Shown: piece by piece, positions 16,483-26,833 of the stretch
How the letters are laid out: every line of letters begins with the position of its first letter
Numbering within the stretch: the stretch's first letter is position 1
Assembly (NCBI GenBank): GCA_018238205.1
Contig: JABCTV010000014.1
Coordinates: 1-35,866 of the forward strand
Reading direction: 5' to 3'
DNA length: 35,866 bases
From: Candidatus Thorarchaeota archaeon
GTDB taxonomy: Archaea > Asgardarchaeota > Thorarchaeia > Thorarchaeales > Thorarchaeaceae
Position numbers and translations under genes: made by a program
The notes under the pieces: generated by a model
The model's input: only the letters and a program-made list of their open reading frames with translations
Told to the model about the DNA's origin: nothing
Databases searched by the model: none

Positions 16483-19400
16483 ATGAAACGCATTGCTCTA
16501 TCTCTACTCTTGGTCTGCATGATATTTGCTAGTATCCAATTCACAGCTGCTCCTGTTGAGCTGGGGCTGAATGATATTGATGTTCAAAATGATCTGAAAG
16601 ACCTCGGAACTACTTCAGCAGATACTGGAGTGACGGTCTCCAATAATCCTTACATTGTGCTGGAGCTTGTTGGAGGAGATATCTCCAATCATGGTACTGA
16701 CTGGTCTACACTGCTGAATTCTATGGGCATACCAAATTCCGTGCTACAAACTAGTGATGTTCTTGCTGACCCCTCACTGTTACACGATGTCCCTGCTGTG
16801 ATCATTGATGGCAGTCTTGGTTCATCCAGTGGGAATGCCGTTTCACAGAACATAGTGGATATTCTGATTCAAGAAGACATCACTCTGATACTTACCGGAC
16901 GTTCGGCTTGGTTGCTTCATCGGCTATCAGCCCGAAGTCCACCCTCTCAGACCGCTTCTGTTGCGACAATCTTGACTACCGAGTCTGGATATGCAGGAGC
17001 GGTCTTCCTATCACAACCAGTTCCTTTGACAATTGGTTCAACACTAAGTAATGAAGCTGGTCTAATCCTTCCAGTTGATACTGTTCAGACTGAGATGTCC
17101 CGGCTGGTCAATCTGACAGGAAGTTCAATTTCCACCACGGCCCCATTACGATACGATTCTTGGCCGCTAGATGTCTTTCTGTTTGCATATGAAGACCCTA
17201 CTCTTCTCACTTCAACAGGTGAAGGTCTCTTAGAGAACACGGTGGCTTATTGTAATGCAGTTAGAGAAACTGCAACTACAACTAATCTGGCCACCTTTCA
17301 AGCGTCGGAAGGAGAACTACTCGCAGGCGGTTTCAGTTATGACCATGCACCTCTCATTGTATCGGTTTACTATGCAGTTCACACAGCTTCAGACCTTCTC
17401 GAAGGAACTGCTTGGACGAATTGGATTGTAGACAATACACCTCTAGTTCGTGATATTCTTAATGACCTCATGATTGACTACGGTTCCGAAACTGGTTTCA
17501 TGACTTCGGCCGCTGATGGAATCGTCAGTTGTCAAAGTACCGCACAAGGACTCTGGGTTCTGACGACCATGGGTTTCTCTGCTGAGTTTCCAGAAAGTGA
17601 AATTGTCCAATATCTCAGTTCACGACAAGAAGTAGCAGGCGGGTTTGATAATTATATTACAACAACCTACTATGTCACTGAGGCTCTGGCTGTTTCAGGT
17701 CAACTAGGTGAGATATCCACATATGATCTTGAGCTATTTTTGAGATCTCTTGTTATTGATGGTTCAAAAACAGGTGACCCCGATCTTTGGGGTTCAATCG
17801 GCTCAAATCCGACCAGCATCTCTCCACGGACAAACTATGCTTCAGAGTATCTAAGGTCTCTTGCGTTCATAGGATTGGCGCATCCTGATCCAGCAAAGCT
17901 GACAAGTTGGATATTGACACGAACTGCAAATGGGGATGGGTCTTTTAGAAACACAAATGGTCCAGATGAAGAGATTGTAACAGGGACAGCGTCAGCATTG
18001 GCAACCATGCAGCATCTTGGAACCCTCAGCGCTGAGAATAAAACTGCAGGTCTCGCTTGGTTCTCCAATAACCAACTTGGATCTGGCGGTTTTGGGATGA
18101 AACCTGCTACAGATGATCTTGTTGCAAAAACTAGAGAGACCTCAAGGGTGGCTCTCTGTCTTGAATCTCTTGGAGAGACCTCAGGCGGGATTGCATCTGG
18201 AATCACAATCTTCATTGACTCAATTACAACTAGCGTTGGATTCGAAGCAATGGACATTCTTCCATCACTCATGTGGACCAGCTGGCTTCTAGAATCTAGC
18301 CGCTTAGTACATGCACCGCTGGTCGACCTGAACCTTGCAGCTGACTATCTTAACGGGTTTGACAGTCTGAACGTCTATCCCTTTTGGTCAAATCTAACAA
18401 CCGTGAGTGCATCTGAGTATGGGTTCAATCAGTACCGGACAAAGAGTGTCTGGACCCAATACTTTGGGACTAGTGTAGTAAATGCACTTGGGATAAATTT
18501 TGACTCGACTATGATTTCTGGTATCACACTCTATCTATCTCAGAGCCAATACATGACTGGACATTATCGTCCAACCTCTATCATGGGAACTGCCCATATG
18601 CAGTATTCAGTGGCTGCTGTAGAGACCTTGTTCTTACTTGATGAGCTGGCCACAATTCCTTATCGAGCAGCCCTAGAGACCGCTATCCTTTCCGAGTACA
18701 GCTCGGGAAGTTGGGATACAGCAGGATGGACCCTTGAACCATTTGCTGGTTTCCAAGAGGCCATCGATTTTCTATCAACTCGCGCAGCTATTAGACTTGG
18801 AATTGTTACTCCAACAATGGCATCTGAGATTACCGCTTCAATTGAATCTCGTATTCAATACACAGACCTCACGGCACTGAGCATGGATGTAGCTACACTC
18901 TCTCTTCTCCATGCATCAGATTCTTCCGTCAATCTTGATTCTGTAGATACTTCCACAGTTCTCAGTGCTTTGAGGTCATCACACTTCAGTGATGGCTGGT
19001 TCAATAATAGTGTACTCTGGCAACCTGTTTTTACTCAAAGTGTTCTCAAGATGGTTTCAATTCTTGGACTCCGATGTGAACTCTTTGATACTCCTGGTCT
19101 TGGTCTGAGTGCAAGCGCAAGTGCGAACACCGAGCTTGGTTCAACCCTTGATATCTCAGTAAGTATCTCTTCTTCAGAACCAAGTCATACTGTTATTGTG
19201 AATGCATTCGGTGAAACTACGCTCTTTACAAATGTCGCCAATTCAGATTCTCTCTCGCTACCTGTTCCGTCAAGTCTAGAAACCTTAGGTTCATGGACCG
19301 TTTTTATCATGGTACAAGATTGGGGTTCATCTCGTGCATATGACACACTCACTGTGCAGGTTGAAGGAACTCTTGAAGGCTCTCTTGATATTGAAACACC

Positions 19401-22400
19401 AGTTGTGAAGATGGGTGAAAATATCAATGGCACGATTTCTTGGACACTTGCAGGAGATGGTGATGCTGGTGTCGGTCATATCACTATTCGTCTTGGTGAT
19501 CCTCCAACATATCAGCAATACAGTTACGATGAAACCTCTCCATTCTGGTTCTCGATCCCGAGTACAGACTTTGATGCAGGGGACTACAATCTTACGGTTA
19601 CAATTGACGTACCAGATTGTTCTCAATTAATTCTCAGAGATCAAGTAACGATTGCAGAACCGAATCCAACTTATCTTACGACGGTATCAGAAACCGATGG
19701 TCTTGTGGGCAATGAGTTATTTGTAAGCTGGTCTTTGCATCATCAAGAAAATGATTCATTGATTGCCAATCAAGAGGTTTCACTAATAATCCGAGATGAC
19801 TTTGACACAATTGTCTATTCCACTCTTCTCATTTCAGATTCTAGCATCGAATTTTTCTCTTGGACTCCTATGGCAAGAGGTGATTTTACCTATACTCTGA
19901 CTTTTGATGGAAATGGTTCTCTGGATGGAAGTCAAACTCAGGGAATGATTCACGTATACGAGCACACTGTGATTACTTGGATTGGAACTGGCACTCTAGA
20001 CCAATACTCAACAGTTACACTAACAGTGCAACTTACAACTCAAGATTCAGAGGTATTGAGTGGGCAGAGTCTACATGTCACTATCACATCCCCATCTTTG
20101 GTGAATATTGTTGATACGATACTCGTCACCAATTCAACAGGTCATGCATCTGTTACAATTACGCTTACTGAGAATGGGAACTACAATGTCCAATGTGATT
20201 TCTCTGGTGTGAGTTTTCTTCTCAGCTCATCTGAATCTGATGTAGTGACTTCATGGTCTTCAAGCCAATTAGAAATTGGTGGGGTAATTGTTGAGGAAAC
20301 CATAGGTGGGCCTCGAACACTGTGGGCTCAATTGAAAGACTTGATTTCAAATCCCGTTTCAGGTCAATCGATTACTCTTCGTGTTATCCTTCTTCCATCT
20401 ACTGTGCTAATGGAACAGACACTTACAACAAACTCTAGCGGTTTTGTTTCGATGCAATGGAGTGCAAGTAGTGCAGGTTCTTTTAGATTTGAAGCTGACT
20501 ACGGTGGTTCTCTTTCACGAGGGTCAGCTTCTGAAGCATTTGATTTTGATGTACTAATTCCTGTGACTCTCTCAATAAGTTACAATCCATCTCCAGAGGT
20601 TAGCGTTCCAGGTTGGATTCAGGTGGTAGCAGTTGACCATCTATCAAATCCAATATCAGGTCTCACTGTAACGATATCTGTTGAACGACCCGGTGGTGGC
20701 GTTGATTACACAAATATTTCCACAACTTCTGGTGGTATTGCTGTATTCACATGGACTCCATCTACACGAGGAATCAATGATATCATTGTTACTTCCGTGC
20801 AACAATCCTGGTACTATGCAGGTTACTCAAGTCTTGGAGTAGGTGTCTGTGAAACTCCCATTATTTCGATTGATTTTCCTTCAGATCTTGTTGCTCCTAC
20901 GACTGATTCAATTCAGATTACATTGATTGGGAGTGATGTAAGTCCAGTCAGTGGTGCAACAGTTCACACTATAGTTTCACTCGATGGTTCTATAATCTAT
21001 GACGCAGATGATGTCACCAGTGCTGCGGGATTAATCACCCTCACTCTTGACTTTGGAACTCCTGGTCAATTAGAGATTCAGGTCCAAGTTTCTGCGCAAG
21101 AATGGCTCCTTGAAACCTCAGAAAACAAGAATGGAATAGTTACTGCTGCTACAACACTTACAGTTACGATTCCTGGTTTACCTGTTGAACAGGGTTCAAC
21201 TGTAGGAGTTCTTGTAACGCTACTAGACTTTAGTGGTTCTCCTCTGGTCGGAGCCACAATCGACATTTCAGTAACCTGGAGCAATGGAACCGTTCTGAAT
21301 ACATACTCTCGAACTGCTGACAGCTCAGGGCAATGTACTCTTGCTCAACCCTTCAACTATGTTGGAGATTTTATCATCAGTGCAACCTATGCTGGCTATG
21401 GTTACAATTCTTCTGCAAGTGACACGGTAGCACAGAGAGTTTACACTACTCCAAACATCCAATTGTACCACAATCCTAGTTGTATTGTTGGAAACCCTCT
21501 TGAGTTCCAAGTAGCTTATCTTGATTCGCTTGAAAATTACATCATTGGACGTACCATTCATTTTAGTATTCAACAAGATGGAGTTCAGGTATTTGATGCA
21601 CAAGTACCCTCAATAAATGGACTAGCAATAATCACATGGTATCCTTCTCAGGGCGGTCTTGCTGACATCACTGTTCTCCATGTAGGAGACATTTTGTTCC
21701 TTACCAATTCAACATCCTCGACAAGCTCAGTCCTTGAGCTCGTAGATGGAACACTCTGGATAACTCCTGCACAGATTGATTTGTTTGGCTCGACTACGCT
21801 GGTCTACAATCTGACCACGACTCTCCCACAGGCTGGAGTGACAATACATTTCGAAGTGCTTGGAATGGATTTGGTTCCGTTATGGTCTGCAAATGTATTA
21901 ACAAACTCGTCAGGAATGGCTAGTGTGGTGTATACTGCAGATGATTCTCATGGAGTCCTCATTGTCAATGTGGGCCCTGTGGCCGAGGAATTTCTGATTG
22001 GTGGCGAAGTTCAAGATCAACTGATTGTGATGACACACAGTAGTGTTTCTGTTTCACTAGTTCCCTATCCTCCCGCAGTTGACACTTTGATTAACATTAC
22101 CTTCTTGGTGATTGATGATCTAGGTGGAGTTGTAGATGGCATCTCCATCACCGTGACAGTCTATGATCCATATGGTGAACAAATCAAACTTGGAATGTGG
22201 ACAAACTCGATCACGGTTTCAGTAGTGGAGGGTCTTGCAATTGTCGAGTTCACACCTGAAATGGTGGGTCTCTATACAGTCGCCTTCACGTCTACTGGCT
22301 CGGTTTCAGTGCATAGCTTCACTGACTCAACCATCCATACAATCTATTCAACAACAGAACTGGTACTATCACTATCAACTCTCGATCTTGAAGTCGGAGA

Positions 22401-24297
22401 TACACTGGACATATTTGCTCAGCTATTGGATCATGATGGAAACCCTATGGTCGGGCGAAACGTGACCCTCGAACTGGATGGCCCCGGAGCAAGCTCGATG
22501 GGTCCTGTTGAATTAATAACAAATGCAAATGGCTTTGTTACTTGGATAGTTGAAATTGTAGAAGAGGGGTCATGGTTTCTTGATGCTTCTTTTGAGGGTC
22601 TCGGAGTCTATCTCCCTTCCGGAGCTTTTGAAGAGGTCAATGTGAAATACGGGACAGTCGTTCAACTTGAGCTTCTCAATCCTGATGACGTGATAGCTGG
22701 AGTAACTGATGCATCTTTCTCTATTCTCCTAGAAGACACTGGCGGTACTCCCATGGAAGGATTCACGGTTCACTACGAGGCACACCATCAAGTCTTTGGA
22801 CTCATCATTGAAGGAAACTTAATTCAGTCTGGAACTGAGCCGATAATCCTGAATATCACTTTAGCTAACATGGGCAATATCACTTTCATAGTATCTTTTG
22901 GTGGTACAAGTCACTATCATGCATCTAATGCAGCGCTACAATTTTGGGTACGAGGAACCACTGATGTGGTCACATCAATTCCAACATCCATAGACCGTTC
23001 TTCTGAGGACGGATTTACGCTATTCATCAAAGATGAGGTTTCTGAACCTATTCCGTTTGCTGAACTCGATTTTATAATTGAGCTCACAGGTCCTCTGGGG
23101 GTCGTGACCCTGACCAGTCGATTACAGTGGAATCAGTCCTCGGTGGATTTGTTCATCAACTCTCTTCCTGTTGGTCATTACACTCTATCTGTTATTGTTG
23201 CTTCAAGCATTGAACGACTAGGTTGCAACATTCTTATTGACTTCACAATCACAAGTATCACTACGCTTGAGATTGGCGATGAGGATTTCTCAGGGATTAT
23301 CTATACTCTACACTCTCTGACTTTCTTCCTTAATGACTCTTTGATGGAAGCGATTGATGGTGCTGACGTCTGGCTGAGTATCTACGATTCTCTAGATCGT
23401 GAGATATATGGACATCCTCTCAGCACTCGAACTCTTCTCACTTCTACCATTCTGGGTACCGAGGTCTCTTGGACGCCATCTCTTACCGGCGAATATCGTA
23501 TTCTCATTGATTTCATAGGCAATGAATTCTACAATCAGTCATCCCTTGAGATTGTGGTCCTTGTTCGTCATCTTAGTTCAGTATCCCTTGAGGCTCCGGA
23601 GCTTTCAGAATTCGGCGAGATCATTCCTCTCACTGGAACACTTGAAGGAGCTATTGGAGGGATGAGTGGCAAGACCGTAAATATCACAGTCTTCACTGAT
23701 GGCGTCATACAACTGGAAGAGACCCTTGTTACTGGTAGTCGTGGAGTGATTAGCTATAATCTTGTAGGTCTCTTGGCAGGTACTCACACGGTCCGAATTA
23801 CATTCGAAGGGTCCGACTCGCAGGCTCCTTGTTCTAACCAATTTGTCCTTGAGATTGCACCGATTATTGTCATTGCAATTTCCAACGACCATAGTTTCTT
23901 TGTCAGCCGTAACAACACTCTGAGCGTTTCGGTCAGTGTGCTCGGAACTCGCGCTGATTGGATTGGGTCATTAGATGCAATACTGTTTAGTCCTGGAAAT
24001 GAGGACAGTGGTTCCTGGAGCTTCGAGATAGACTCTTACTCTATCTTGGACATTAACTTTCTACCATTGGTTGAAGGGACCTATTCTCTCAATATTACAG
24101 TGGTCGGTCTCCCTGTTGCCGTTGAACGCACATATCCCTTAGCGATTGCTGTAGTACGTGAGTCATTGCAGATCGAGCTGGATGCAGCCAATACATCTCT
24201 ATTAGGAGGGTTTGGAATCTTGTCTGTGGTCGGAGTAATCATGAGAAAGAAGATGAAGGGTGTTGTTGGCTCAATGCCAGGAGAATGGACCGGTTAA
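16483..24297 (+). CDS. Giant cell-surface protein: alpha/alpha toroid plus Ig-like repeats
   Basis: The 2604-residue protein starts at ATG 16483 with CGGAGGCG about 10 bases upstream. A signal peptide (MKRIALSLLLVCMIFASIQF..., cleavage near 23-24) and a C-terminal membrane helix with a basic stop-transfer (about 2572-2590, then RKKMKG) place it outside the cell. After an alpha/beta segment (about 55-130), residues about 270-860 carry prenyltransferase/squalene-cyclase-like repeats (GGFSYDHAP, GGFDNYITT, GDGSFRNTN, GSGGFGMKP), an alpha/alpha toroid. From about 870 to 2560 there are roughly 14-16 repeats of about 100 residues with an Ig or macroglobulin-like pattern (TNSSG-x-ASVT ... G-x-Y-x-V ... 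F-x-G). Toroid plus such domains recalls alpha-2-macroglobulins, but domain order is reversed and no GCGEQ thioester is seen. Likely roles are adhesion or S-layer-associated structure. Numerous NxS/T sites suggest glycosylation. Confidence 0.9.
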   Translation: MKRIALSLLLVCMIFASIQFTAAPVELGLNDIDVQNDLKDLGTTSADTGVTVSNNPYIVLELVGGDISNHGTDWSTLLNSMGIPNSVLQTSDVLADPSLLHDVPAVIIDGSLGSSSGNAVSQNIVDILIQEDITLILTGRSAWLLHRLSARSPPSQTASVATILTTESGYAGAVFLSQPVPLTIGSTLSNEAGLILPVDTVQTEMSRLVNLTGSSISTTAPLRYDSWPLDVFLFAYEDPTLLTSTGEGLLENTVAYCNAVRETATTTNLATFQASEGELLAGGFSYDHAPLIVSVYYAVHTASDLLEGTAWTNWIVDNTPLVRDILNDLMIDYGSETGFMTSAADGIVSCQSTAQGLWVLTTMGFSAEFPESEIVQYLSSRQEVAGGFDNYITTTYYVTEALAVSGQLGEISTYDLELFLRSLVIDGSKTGDPDLWGSIGSNPTSISPRTNYASEYLRSLAFIGLAHPDPAKLTSWILTRTANGDGSFRNTNGPDEEIVTGTASALATMQHLGTLSAENKTAGLAWFSNNQLGSGGFGMKPATDDLVAKTRETSRVALCLESLGETSGGIASGITIFIDSITTSVGFEAMDILPSLMWTSWLLESSRLVHAPLVDLNLAADYLNGFDSLNVYPFWSNLTTVSASEYGFNQYRTKSVWTQYFGTSVVNALGINFDSTMISGITLYLSQSQYMTGHYRPTSIMGTAHMQYSVAAVETLFLLDELATIPYRAALETAILSEYSSGSWDTAGWTLEPFAGFQEAIDFLSTRAAIRLGIVTPTMASEITASIESRIQYTDLTALSMDVATLSLLHASDSSVNLDSVDTSTVLSALRSSHFSDGWFNNSVLWQPVFTQSVLKMVSILGLRCELFDTPGLGLSASASANTELGSTLDISVSISSSEPSHTVIVNAFGETTLFTNVANSDSLSLPVPSSLETLGSWTVFIMVQDWGSSRAYDTLTVQVEGTLEGSLDIETPVVKMGENINGTISWTLAGDGDAGVGHITIRLGDPPTYQQYSYDETSPFWFSIPSTDFDAGDYNLTVTIDVPDCSQLILRDQVTIAEPNPTYLTTVSETDGLVGNELFVSWSLHHQENDSLIANQEVSLIIRDDFDTIVYSTLLISDSSIEFFSWTPMARGDFTYTLTFDGNGSLDGSQTQGMIHVYEHTVITWIGTGTLDQYSTVTLTVQLTTQDSEVLSGQSLHVTITSPSLVNIVDTILVTNSTGHASVTITLTENGNYNVQCDFSGVSFLLSSSESDVVTSWSSSQLEIGGVIVEETIGGPRTLWAQLKDLISNPVSGQSITLRVILLPSTVLMEQTLTTNSSGFVSMQWSASSAGSFRFEADYGGSLSRGSASEAFDFDVLIPVTLSISYNPSPEVSVPGWIQVVAVDHLSNPISGLTVTISVERPGGGVDYTNISTTSGGIAVFTWTPSTRGINDIIVTSVQQSWYYAGYSSLGVGVCETPIISIDFPSDLVAPTTDSIQITLIGSDVSPVSGATVHTIVSLDGSIIYDADDVTSAAGLITLTLDFGTPGQLEIQVQVSAQEWLLETSENKNGIVTAATTLTVTIPGLPVEQGSTVGVLVTLLDFSGSPLVGATIDISVTWSNGTVLNTYSRTADSSGQCTLAQPFNYVGDFIISATYAGYGYNSSASDTVAQRVYTTPNIQLYHNPSCIVGNPLEFQVAYLDSLENYIIGRTIHFSIQQDGVQVFDAQVPSINGLAIITWYPSQGGLADITVLHVGDILFLTNSTSSTSSVLELVDGTLWITPAQIDLFGSTTLVYNLTTTLPQAGVTIHFEVLGMDLVPLWSANVLTNSSGMASVVYTADDSHGVLIVNVGPVAEEFLIGGEVQDQLIVMTHSSVSVSLVPYPPAVDTLINITFLVIDDLGGVVDGISITVTVYDPYGEQIKLGMWTNSITVSVVEGLAIVEFTPEMVGLYTVAFTSTGSVSVHSFTDSTIHTIYSTTELVLSLSTLDLEVGDTLDIFAQLLDHDGNPMVGRNVTLELDGPGASSMGPVELITNANGFVTWIVEIVEEGSWFLDASFEGLGVYLPSGAFEEVNVKYGTVVQLELLNPDDVIAGVTDASFSILLEDTGGTPMEGFTVHYEAHHQVFGLIIEGNLIQSGTEPIILNITLANMGNITFIVSFGGTSHYHASNAALQFWVRGTTDVVTSIPTSIDRSSEDGFTLFIKDEVSEPIPFAELDFIIELTGPLGVVTLTSRLQWNQSSVDLFINSLPVGHYTLSVIVASSIERLGCNILIDFTITSITTLEIGDEDFSGIIYTLHSLTFFLNDSLMEAIDGADVWLSIYDSLDREIYGHPLSTRTLLTSTILGTEVSWTPSLTGEYRILIDFIGNEFYNQSSLEIVVLVRHLSSVSLEAPELSEFGEIIPLTGTLEGAIGGMSGKTVNITVFTDGVIQLEETLVTGSRGVISYNLVGLLAGTHTVRITFEGSDSQAPCSNQFVLEIAPIIVIAISNDHSFFVSRNNTLSVSVSVLGTRADWIGSLDAILFSPGNEDSGSWSFEIDSYSILDINFLPLVEGTYSLNITVVGLPVAVERTYPLAIAVVRESLQIELDAANTSLLGGFGILSVVGVIMRKKMKGVVGSMPGEWTG

Positions 24298-24300
24298 GTG

Positions 24301-26268
24301 CTATGATCTGATTTGACTTAGAAATCCAGATATATCATCATCCCACGTTCCATCCGGTTTGAGAAGTCTTTTGTAGAGGTTATGTGTATACGCTGCAAAT
24401 GCATTCACACGGTAGATCTTGATATCCATTTCATGTTCCTTGGCTCTTTTTGGTAATTGTGTTGAGATATCATAAACCGAATCCTCTGGCAATCTGGATA
24501 TAATATAGCTTTGTTCTCCTTCTCCAGTAATCCTTGCAGTCGTGCTTGGTGCATGCTTTAGCAGCGACCTAGTCAGGGATTGTATCTTTTGTGATGGCCC
24601 ATTACAAACAAAGCATATTGACGCAAGATCTCCAATAGGTAAATAGTACTGGAGACGGATAATATTGCAGCTTGTTAGTTTAGCAAGTATTTCTCTTAGT
24701 CGTTCTGTGTTCATTTCTAGAAATTCATCATACTCTCCCAGTTCTAATGAATGCATATACAATCCCCATGTAATTAGACCTAATACTTTGGCTTCATCCA
24801 TACTTGGTGTGAATATTTTTTCTAAAGGTTTCACTTGGAACTCCCGATCAAGTTGTTTCAGGCTTCTCTGACCTTCCACTGATTTCAAGATTCGTGTTGT
24901 ATTAACTTTCCATTTTTGCTTAGAATCAATGAAAAGATTGTAGTTCATATTGCTAGCAGACCATGATACTTCTGAGATATTTGTTCTTAATCTCCGAATT
25001 CGTTCTACAGCTGAAGGTGGCATCACCATTACCTGAATATATGGTGGTTTCTCTGTTGGATTTCCTAATCTGGCTGTCCATGCTAAATGTCTATGAGGCC
25101 ATCTATGAGCTCCTCCAATATAGATTAAAGTTCTGAGACCCATATTCTGATTCTGAACATGACCTCTAATCTGAAGTGCATTTTGAATCATGGCAAATCT
25201 GTTAATCCATGCTTCTTGTGACAAGGTAGCATCATATTTTGAAATTGGAAGACCTGATAGGATTTCTTGGTTTTGATTAAGTTTAGTTACTGTTTGAAGG
25301 ATACGACTACGTCTGTCTGGAAACATACTGGTAAGTTTATACCATGCAATATCCCATGGATTATTTTCTATTGCTGTGGTTGCAGGTTGGAGCGCAACAG
25401 GAAGAATCCCTCTATCTGCCATTATAAAAACTCGAACGTATTGAGGGGGTGTATCACCTTCAATTAAGCATTGAATGTGATCAAAGATTAAACAGTGAAG
25501 AAGTGGTGTTGACCTATATTTCGTGCTTATCTCCAATGGATCTTCATCAGGAATTTTAATACGGATGACTAATGATAAGAATGTCATCAGTTCATCTCTG
25601 ATATGACTTGGAAATGATTTAGGAACCAACTGATCCATTGTATCTCTCATCGTTTTACCAATCTTCAGATTTGGTACTGTGATACCCTCTACCAGTGTTG
25701 CAAATTCATTCCATTTTGGTGCAGGTGAATCGAGTATACTTCCTATGAGTGAATTTCGATTTTCATAATCTAATTCTTCATTCAGTTTCTTGTATGCGTC
25801 CCAATCTCTGTCCATATGTAGAATAACTATCTCATATGGATTCACTTTTTGTACATTTAGTAGATTATGATTTTCCAAATCAAATATCAATAGTAGATAC
25901 TTTTCACTATCAACTATGGGGTGTGTGACAAATAATGCGTCACTACCAGAATCCGATAATCTATTTATCCATCCACCACTACTTGCAGGATACATCTCAT
26001 TCATCGGAATTTCAGTAGCAGTGTATCTTCTAATAGTAAAATTAGAACTAAAAAGAATTTTTTCATCGGTTGAAATTGGAATTGCTTCTGATGCTTTTCG
26101 GATTGAAAATGATACACCATCTCGGGAATCTGCATCATCAAGAATTTCACCATTATCTAGAGTGATTTTTGGTCCCTCAATTGAATATGAAAGAATACCA
26201 CTCTCTACCAAACCTGATGGGAAATAAACAGTAACTAACATTTCCATTGAATCTGCATCCAATTCCAT
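24301..26268 (-). CDS. Large wHTH/Lrp-like protein, paralogue of the 12814 gene
   Basis: From the ATG complementary to 26266-26268 the protein has 655 residues and starts MELDADSMEM. An in-frame ATG at 26349 would add 27 residues rich in Tyr, Leu and Thr. I prefer the shorter form because a TATA box lies about 35 bases before it. The N-terminal part is beta-rich. The C-terminal 160 residues (LREILAKLTSCNIIRLQYYLPI, then an Lrp-like alpha/beta segment with SYIISRLPEDSVYDIS, ending KPDGTWDDD) align by eye with the end of the 12814 gene. Both therefore belong to one family of large winged-helix proteins. A role in regulation is likely from the fold only. It converges on the giant surface-protein gene with a 3-base gap, so one terminator region must serve both. 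Confidence 0.75.
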   Translation of the reverse strand: MELDADSMEMLVTVYFPSGLVESGILSYSIEGPKITLDNGEILDDADSRDGVSFSIRKASEAIPISTDEKILFSSNFTIRRYTATEIPMNEMYPASSGGWINRLSDSGSDALFVTHPIVDSEKYLLLIFDLENHNLLNVQKVNPYEIVILHMDRDWDAYKKLNEELDYENRNSLIGSILDSPAPKWNEFATLVEGITVPNLKIGKTMRDTMDQLVPKSFPSHIRDELMTFLSLVIRIKIPDEDPLEISTKYRSTPLLHCLIFDHIQCLIEGDTPPQYVRVFIMADRGILPVALQPATTAIENNPWDIAWYKLTSMFPDRRSRILQTVTKLNQNQEILSGLPISKYDATLSQEAWINRFAMIQNALQIRGHVQNQNMGLRTLIYIGGAHRWPHRHLAWTARLGNPTEKPPYIQVMVMPPSAVERIRRLRTNISEVSWSASNMNYNLFIDSKQKWKVNTTRILKSVEGQRSLKQLDREFQVKPLEKIFTPSMDEAKVLGLITWGLYMHSLELGEYDEFLEMNTERLREILAKLTSCNIIRLQYYLPIGDLASICFVCNGPSQKIQSLTRSLLKHAPSTTARITGEGEQSYIISRLPEDSVYDISTQLPKRAKEHEMDIKIYRVNAFAAYTHNLYKRLLKPDGTWDDDISGFLSQIRS

Positions 26269-26309: not shown

Positions 26310-26404
26310 GTGTTAGTTGTAGAATGGTGTACAACTTATAGAAAAACAATATTGTGTGAGGTGGAAGCTTACTAGAAGATTCACATCCTCACTGATTCTA
26401 TTTC

Positions 26405-26542
26405 TCACCATGGAGCAGAAAATTGTGTTTGAGCGGTTAGCTTAATCATCCAAGGTTCTGTTGGGGGCTTTGTTGGAGGAGCTTCTCGATTGATCCATGG
26501 TTCTGTTGGAGGTTTAGTAGGTGGGAGTTCGTGTCGTTTCAT
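26405..26542 (-). CDS. 45-residue Pro-rich peptide with duplicated motif
   Basis: This minus-strand ORF starts at ATG (complement of 26540-26542) and stops at TGA (26405-26407), giving 45 residues. It contains two copies of PPTKPPTEPW (residues 7-16 and 22-31), separated by INREA, then a short Thr/Gln/Phe tail. Comparing the two ten-codon copies, six bases differ and every difference is synonymous, which is strong evidence that the peptide is translated and selected. It has no signal peptide and no Cys. Proline-rich repeats of this kind usually serve as docking motifs or short linear ligands; the partner is unknown. It sits between the large wHTH gene and the tRNA, with no ribosome-binding site and only a weak TATTTTGG before it. 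Confidence 0.6.
   Translation of the reverse strand: MKRHELPPTKPPTEPWINREAPPTKPPTEPWMIKLTAQTQFSAPW
26448..26530. repeat. Two imperfect 38-bp direct repeats, 45-bp period
   Basis: Copy 1 is 26448-26485 and copy 2 is 26493-26530; 29 of 38 bases agree. Each begins ATCCA(A/T)GGTTCTGTTGG. The period is a multiple of three, and the repeats encode the duplicated Pro-rich motif of the 45-residue ORF. The other bases between 26350 and 26725 are A/T-rich, and I see no further gene there. Confidence 0.8.
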
Positions 26543-26725
26543 TGTTATTACCAAAATACAATGCAAATACAAGTCGAATTTCCACGCGCAAAATCAGGTG
26601 CTAGATATTGCTTAAAATCAAGTCTCAAGTGAGCATTTTTCCTCAATATTTTATAGTGAAAGTTGGCGAGTATATAACTACGAATAATCTTAGATACGGT
26701 CTATTCAAAATATGAAAAGGAAAAG

Positions 26726-26833
26726 TGGTGCGCTCGGCGGGATTTGAACCCGCGCCGGATCCGATCTACGGTTCCGAGGGATTAACCCCCGCACAATGGC
26801 AGGGATCCATCATAGCCCCTAGACAACGAGCGC
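26726..26833 (-). tRNA. tRNA-Gly(GCC) with 33-nt intron, CCA encoded
   Basis: Read on the minus strand, the acceptor stem is GCGCTCG/CGAGCGC with discriminator A and encoded CCA (26726-26728). The D-arm starts GTCT and the T-arm is GCGGG TTCAAAT CCCGC. The anticodon stem GATCC/GGATC closes a loop C-T-GCC-A...C, giving anticodon GCC (Gly). Between positions 37 and 38 there are 33 extra bases. They form a canonical splicing site: a 4-bp central helix CUGC/GUAG, three-base bulges CA^U and AU^C, and an inner helix CGGGGG/CCCTCG. Removing them gives a 71-nt body plus ACCA. Splicing would be by the archaeal tRNA endonuclease. Confidence 0.93.

Follow-up and report, generated by a model that had tools for sequence, protein, structure and literature searches.

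The micro-ORF at positions 26405 to 26542 (minus strand) of the window, the stretch of 35,866 nucleotides of thorarchaeal DNA analysed as a whole, encodes a 45-aa member of a micropeptide family of Thorarchaeota. Members of this family are 11–60 aa long, carry one to four copies of a motif and end in EPW or in a Pro-aromatic sequence. Judged from their sequences, the EPW micropeptides are genuine genes and form an undescribed family. We put at about one in two the probability that they are ligands of the neighbouring Lrp-like proteins, whose activity would be switched by binding. In the source genome the EPW-type micropeptide genes number at least five or six, namely the A1 gene at 26405–26542, an unlinked A1 copy and the A2, B, C and C2 genes. 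Each reads as a translation unit of small size, made up of a Shine–Dalgarno-like site, 11–60 codons and, for the A type, usually a hairpin at the 3′ end. The family appears to be a genome-wide class of genes of 11–60 aa, under selection in an Asgard group and overlooked because the ORFs are too short, in line with the suggestion of the earlier note that the gene in the window is easily missed.

The micropeptide of the window (MKRHELPPTKPPTEPWINREAPPTKPPTEPWMIKLTAQTQFSAPW) begins at an ATG and ends at a TGA stop codon. It contains PPTKPPTEPW twice, at 26495–26524 (copy 1, residues 7–16) and at 26450–26479 (copy 2, residues 22–31; both on the minus strand), and direct reading confirmed the earlier statement that the two ten-codon copies in 45 residues differ at six bases, all of them synonymous. 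The 30-nt copies can be aligned with each other, and the linker between them shows no alignment. A Shine–Dalgarno-like GGTAAT (26547–26552, minus strand) lies 5–10 nt 5′ of the ATG, and the sequence around the start, GGTAATAA(A)CAATG, was unchanged in four aligned relatives. On the 3′ side of the stop codon, a terminator-like hairpin (26356–26392, minus strand) with the stem GTGAGG...CCTCAC is followed by a T-rich stretch, and the folding energy at this locus was −13.0 kcal/mol (z −2.1). The region 5′ of the micro-ORF (26543–26720, minus strand), a candidate promoter or operator, is conserved with the A1 loci of genomes G005 and G009 and with an unlinked locus (G009:C189), with which it has the block ...TTTGCGxGTxxAAxTTCxGAxATG...GGTAATAACAATG in common. 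Just upstream of the micro-ORF, a tRNA gene of 105 nt (26729–26833, minus strand) was matched by Rfam (44.7 bits) and missed by ARAGORN, suggesting that it probably contains an intron.

The six-of-six synonymous figure is by itself biased, since the repeat was picked because its peptides were identical, and independent evidence was therefore sought. A protein search of 59 relatives revealed open small ORFs in the same genus (in G004, in G005 and twice in G009), and a second copy in the source genome (G000:C49), truncated where its contig ends, was also open. The stops or frameshifts in close relatives that had been named beforehand as a refutation were found in none of these ORFs. A DNA pattern of two EPW codon triplets 18–48 nt apart, blind to the remaining sequence, gave small ORFs in further genomes whose cores were identical within a gene and different between genes, such as TPQEPPVEPW, DPKSPPNEPW, VPTGRPPEPW, DPTDKHPEPW, NPGEIPHPEPW, VPDLPTEPW (three copies), FPADPPNEPW (three copies) and DPFDPYNPEPW. 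Matches of this pattern in G012, G036, G040 and G054 were not small ORFs with repeated cores and were rejected as chance. Looking for the motif in small ORFs of related genomes, as the earlier note had proposed, recovered the EPW family in Thorarchaeota. Among 17 multi-copy genes, the intragenic repeats differed by 75 synonymous and one non-synonymous base changes; together with the open homologues, this bears out the earlier claim of a real gene whose peptide has been held constant. Variation was likewise highest at the third codon position, both among orthologues of the B micro-ORF (0.41 vs 0.20) and among the C2 peptide genes (0.56 vs 0.20 and 0.12, the last value being that of position 2).

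Shine–Dalgarno-like sites were present at 27 of 51 starts of A-type and unlinked micro-ORFs, compared to 12% of all ATGs, and GGAGAG precedes most of the C peptides. Most A-type micro-ORFs, the unlinked ones included, have a hairpin on their 3′ side, in many cases together with a T-run (mean hairpin z −2.6 against mononucleotide shuffles at the 51 A-type and unlinked loci), and by their sequence features the A-type micro-ORFs look like small transcription units. In the 47 genomes that belong to the GTDB family of the source genome, the pattern ATG...P(x)EPW-stop gave 61 matches vs 12 for the reversed control, and a second count gave 30 vs 15, with many unlinked ORFs of 12–13 codons. These ORFs fall mostly into two conserved loci, B and C. 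In 181 other Asgard genomes, the EPW-stop pattern occurred at about background level. The organisms bearing micropeptides are Candidatus Thorarchaeota, with one record labelled Lokiarchaeota, and open homologues span about a dozen genera. Pfam and NCBIfam contained no family for the micropeptides searched. In one genome (G220), the micro-ORF MIPLWLPPEEPW lies upstream of an EF-1-alpha-like gene (C288, L264) and the micro-ORF MISSNAYPGSRPDEPW lies on another contig (C150, L263), both ending at a stop codon and both with no A, B or C neighbour.

The likely ATG of the next gene in the window lies 136 nt after the stop codon of the micro-ORF, at 26268, and this gene encodes a protein of 655 aa (24301–26268, minus strand), designated family A, whose C-terminal half appears to comprise tandem winged-helix and Lrp/RAM-like modules. 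Of the 47 genomes in this GTDB family, 43 have a family A gene, whereas the 181 other genomes of the phylum have none. By hand count, a micro-ORF with a Pro-aromatic end lies upstream of A at 46 of the 59 loci that have upstream sequence, and no recognizable micropeptide was seen at 13 divergent A members. An automatic test for EPW upstream of A was positive at 29 of 50 loci on the sense strand, and the antisense and further-upstream controls gave none. The A1 micro-ORFs precede the A gene by 100–290 nt and are read from the same strand as this gene, a terminator-like hairpin separating the two, and many A-linked micro-ORFs are tiny (MIPDISPSVPEPW, MKPGEPSCPEPW, MNGPVKPPHEPW and MTKTNNMPSSGGDGPW, each ending at a stop codon).

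The 655-aa protein had no match in Pfam or NCBIfam, and a search of PDB sequences gave no useful result. Its structure was predicted with a pLDDT of 88.9, and a Foldseek search with this model gave the tandem Lrp-fold protein NirDL as the best match (E 2.5e-6; TM-score 0.42–0.44 on the target), with the Lrp-type protein ST1022 next and weaker; no RRNPP structure was among the 50 best matches listed. An AsnC-type winged helix in A was thus indicated by the fold match of the model to NirDL and, more weakly, to Lrp ST1022, none being detected by sequence. The tandem Lrp fold is also that of an enzyme, NirDL, and A may for this reason be something other than a transcription regulator. A search of viral contigs revealed no relative of A, and the idea of a virus-borne cassette was not supported by this test.

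At the B locus, the peptide MxxPPxNPxEPW, followed directly by a stop codon, is located 166–231 nt from a divergent gene of about 558 aa with an AsnC-type HTH. It was present, in divergent orientation, at 11 of 11 close B members, and none was recognizable at distant members. The genes downstream of the B micro-ORF vary between loci. The B protein matched PF13404 and PF13412 (2e-7 each) above the cut-off, the matched models being AsnC-type, HTH_24 and similar HTH only, and its score against NCBIfam AhbA was 13.2 bits (cut-off 140). PADLOC matched the HTH region of B proteins to the CRISPR-associated CasR/Csa3 models (5e-9), probably through the winged helix only, and assignment of B to defence was dropped, the match being at the level of the HTH. 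At the C locus, an 11–14-mer preceded by a Shine–Dalgarno site and ending in PEPW, PTPW, EPF or similar is divergent from an HTH gene of about 369 aa, whose product gave weak HTH matches only. This peptide was found in 30 of the 32 genomes with enough sequence. Most C loci also encode a second peptide, C2, of 33–52 aa with the end PPCEDPxPF, for which NCBIfam gave no match; MRTLYESMTKNRAALELLSIGVVRGISTVVQPPCEDPSPF, followed by a stop codon, is that of L220–L249 and others. Some of the C loci read also contained a protein of about 85 aa, an MFS transporter and, downstream, an endonuclease III-like gene.

Comparison by hhalign joined A with B (E 7e-8) and B with C (E 1e-9) and gave no significant match between A and C, so that A and C are joined only via B. 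An alpha-beta RAM module after the helix was suggested in A by the Foldseek matches (NirDL, Lrp) and in B and C by profile similarity alone. By these sequence comparisons and the model, A, B and C appear to be three related families whose large members contain winged-helix/Lrp-like modules in tandem. One exception beyond the GTDB family agrees with the pattern of the C loci: G044, a member of another family, encodes MAPRIPPKPEPW, ending at a stop codon, divergent to a wHTH gene, and G120 has a related gene together with MNPYRSDAWPY-stop.

The cores of the micropeptides differ between species and are mostly shared within a genome. Solo copies were found by motif patterns and not by core sequence, and the linked and unlinked A-type cores were the same or nearly the same in protein, with 36 synonymous and three non-synonymous changes summed over the closest copy pairs of eight genome comparisons and two G226 copies, for which the A gene is cut off. 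At least the unlinked peptides of G005:C348 and G220 did not match a linked core. A fairly recent duplication may account for some of the solo copies, the G000:C49 core being identical even at the DNA level. For cores that are the same in protein and silently diverged at separate loci of one genome, recent duplication is hard to invoke, and so is a cis-acting leader. In G021, G227, G224 and G029, solo copies persist while the A gene is elsewhere. In one genus a solo copy occupies the gatE–PGK locus, a site that in another genus carries both the peptide and the A gene (L025), so that the peptides outlive linkage. Identity of cores within a genome and difference between species point to a trans-acting peptide with a common, species-specific partner, rather than a cis leader alone.

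Under the ligand reading, each micro-ORF would yield a trans-acting product whose species-specific core ends in Glu-Pro-Trp or another Pro-aromatic sequence. The likely partner is the large protein encoded next to it, with its predicted winged-helix/Lrp-like (RAM-fold) modules in tandem; the core would bind this protein and thereby switch its activity, be it ligand-controlled DNA binding or an enzyme activity. Extra motif copies and unlinked genes would raise the dose or valency of the ligand. Processing, export or cell-to-cell signalling of the peptide may also take place; no secretion signal is evident in the micropeptides, and the only transporter repeatedly nearby is the MFS gene of the C loci. 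The earlier note had read the motif as docking-type, and it does look like something that a partner reads. Its proposal of a small regulator is supported in part, as it agrees with the location beside Lrp-like winged-helix proteins. Its other proposal, that the duplicated motif bridges two copies of a partner, did not hold as a general mode: many homologues, among them the majority of those linked to A2, B and C, carry the motif only once (same-genome examples are MIPDISPSVPEPW, MFSPPKNPPEPW and MQPGQDSPVPEPW), others have three or four, and two copies are therefore not essential.

The best-placed alternative, to which we give roughly half the weight of the ligand reading or a little less, is that the micropeptide is a stable intracellular subunit or docking partner, that is, a constitutive short linear motif bound by the Lrp-like or a third protein as scaffold or inhibitor and not as a switchable signal. 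Of the readings considered, this comes nearest to that of the earlier note. The lack of an export leader, the strictly conserved short Pro-rich motif with its Trp and the multiple copies in A1 are all consistent with this, and if each genome had one partner, the identity of cores at unlinked loci would be accounted for. However, the cores change fast between species and the A1, A2, B and C core types differ, as specificity codes would, and the copy number of one to four is not conserved among homologues while the motif persists.

Rather unlikely is a cis-acting leader, in which the Pro-rich EPW codons stall ribosomes and the hairpin after the stop acts as an attenuator of the downstream gene. 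PP motifs can slow translation, and the same-strand position of the A1 micro-ORF upstream of A, with a terminator-like hairpin between them, suits such a leader. At the C loci a small hairpin separates the 12-mer from the gene that follows, 10–50 nt after the 12-mer stop and just before the GGAGG of that gene; the hairpin stem differs between genomes (GCGG/CCGC, ATGCAG/CTGCAT). However, at the B and C loci micro-ORF and regulator gene are transcribed divergently, so that the one cannot be the 5′ leader of the other, and what lies downstream of B is variable. Unlinked copies, which also have hairpins, keep identical cores through synonymous-only change, EPW need not sit at the stop (EPWNR, EPWLF and repeats occur), and a leader would not need two to four identical copies.

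A RiPP-like precursor, with the EPW core modified by a neighbour, possibly by the Lrp-fold protein as an enzyme like NirDL, is improbable. Repeated identical cores in one precursor, the leader-plus-core look of some A1 and C2 peptides and the fact that the nearest structure is an enzyme fit this idea, but no conserved radical SAM, ATP-grasp, YcaO or peptidase gene was recognized in the A, B and C loci read, and many ORFs of 11–13 codons have no room for a leader. A chance ORF or a recent repeat without function, which the short length might suggest, is refuted at the sequence level by the open homologues in about a dozen genera, the Shine–Dalgarno-like sites, the conserved locus and the 75:1 and 36:3 synonymous bias.

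The nearest functional analogue of the proposed ligand system is the leaderless communication peptide (LCP)/RopB pair of Firmicutes (PMC10518010), in which an ultra-small ORF missed by annotation lies beside an HTH regulator gene and encodes a leaderless peptide with a species-specific code (LCP/SIP–RopB; PMC10518010). The thorarchaeal micro-ORFs are likewise ultra-small, leaderless and unannotated, adjoin an HTH-type regulator-like gene and have species-specific codes. In contrast, their candidate receptor is Lrp/AsnC-like and not an RRNPPA TPR protein, and because of this fold they cannot be placed in the LCP/RRNPPA group; the predicted peptides are archaeal, acidic/Pro-rich with EPW, 11–60 aa long and sometimes with two to four motif copies. 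RRNPP systems can have several orthogonal pairs per genome, the small ORF often being divergent from the receptor gene. In SHP/Rgg and other RRNPP pairs, the genes for propeptide and intracellular receptor are adjacent (PMC10075063). The thorarchaeal loci resemble them in gene adjacency, in several pairs per genome and in the divergent small ORF, but no RRNPP/TPR homology and no hydrophobic secretion segment were found. Leaders of the TrpL/TnaC type resemble the A loci in that a gene is preceded by a tiny ORF and a hairpin, whereas the B, C and solo copies are divergent or unlinked and the motif is identical between unlinked genes.

The A protein, as modelled, resembles Lrp/AsnC (FFRP) proteins and the siroheme decarboxylases NirDL/AhbAB in its winged helix and putative RAM-type fold and NirDL in the tandem arrangement, but the A and B proteins, at 550–680 aa, have long N-terminal parts. 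To our knowledge, the ligands of Lrp proteins are amino acids or small metabolites and not encoded peptides. A literature search on Asgard small proteins and quorum sensing, archaeal peptide pheromones and Thorarchaeota Lrp revealed no description of this system. Asgard archaea are the archaea closest to eukaryotes. Should the Lrp-like proteins indeed have the micropeptides as ligands, we know of no earlier description of an encoded-peptide/receptor system from Asgard archaea, nor of another Lrp/AsnC-fold protein that reads a gene-encoded peptide. A bolder and more tentative extension is that Thorarchaeota possess multi-channel peptide signalling, in which every leaderless Pro-aromatic micropeptide would be read by a separate tandem Lrp-fold receptor; the codes would be species-specific and the origin of the system unrelated to bacterial RRNPP, and the C channel would be older than the family, since a related regulator and similar peptides occur in a second Asgard family.

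Two further features of the A loci were observed. The sequence GxAHRWPHxH is near-invariant in the A alignment (residues 385–394 of the window protein, in the first Lrp-like module) and apparently absent from B and C; it may bind a ligand or a metal. A gene at 16483–24297, which converges with the A gene, encodes a surface-type protein of 2604 aa with Big_1/Ig-like repeats, a prenyltransferase-like alpha-alpha toroid and a C-terminal hydrophobic segment. Genes of this type are also paired with A1 genes in G005, G009, G010 and G020, and the protein may belong to the functional neighbourhood of A.
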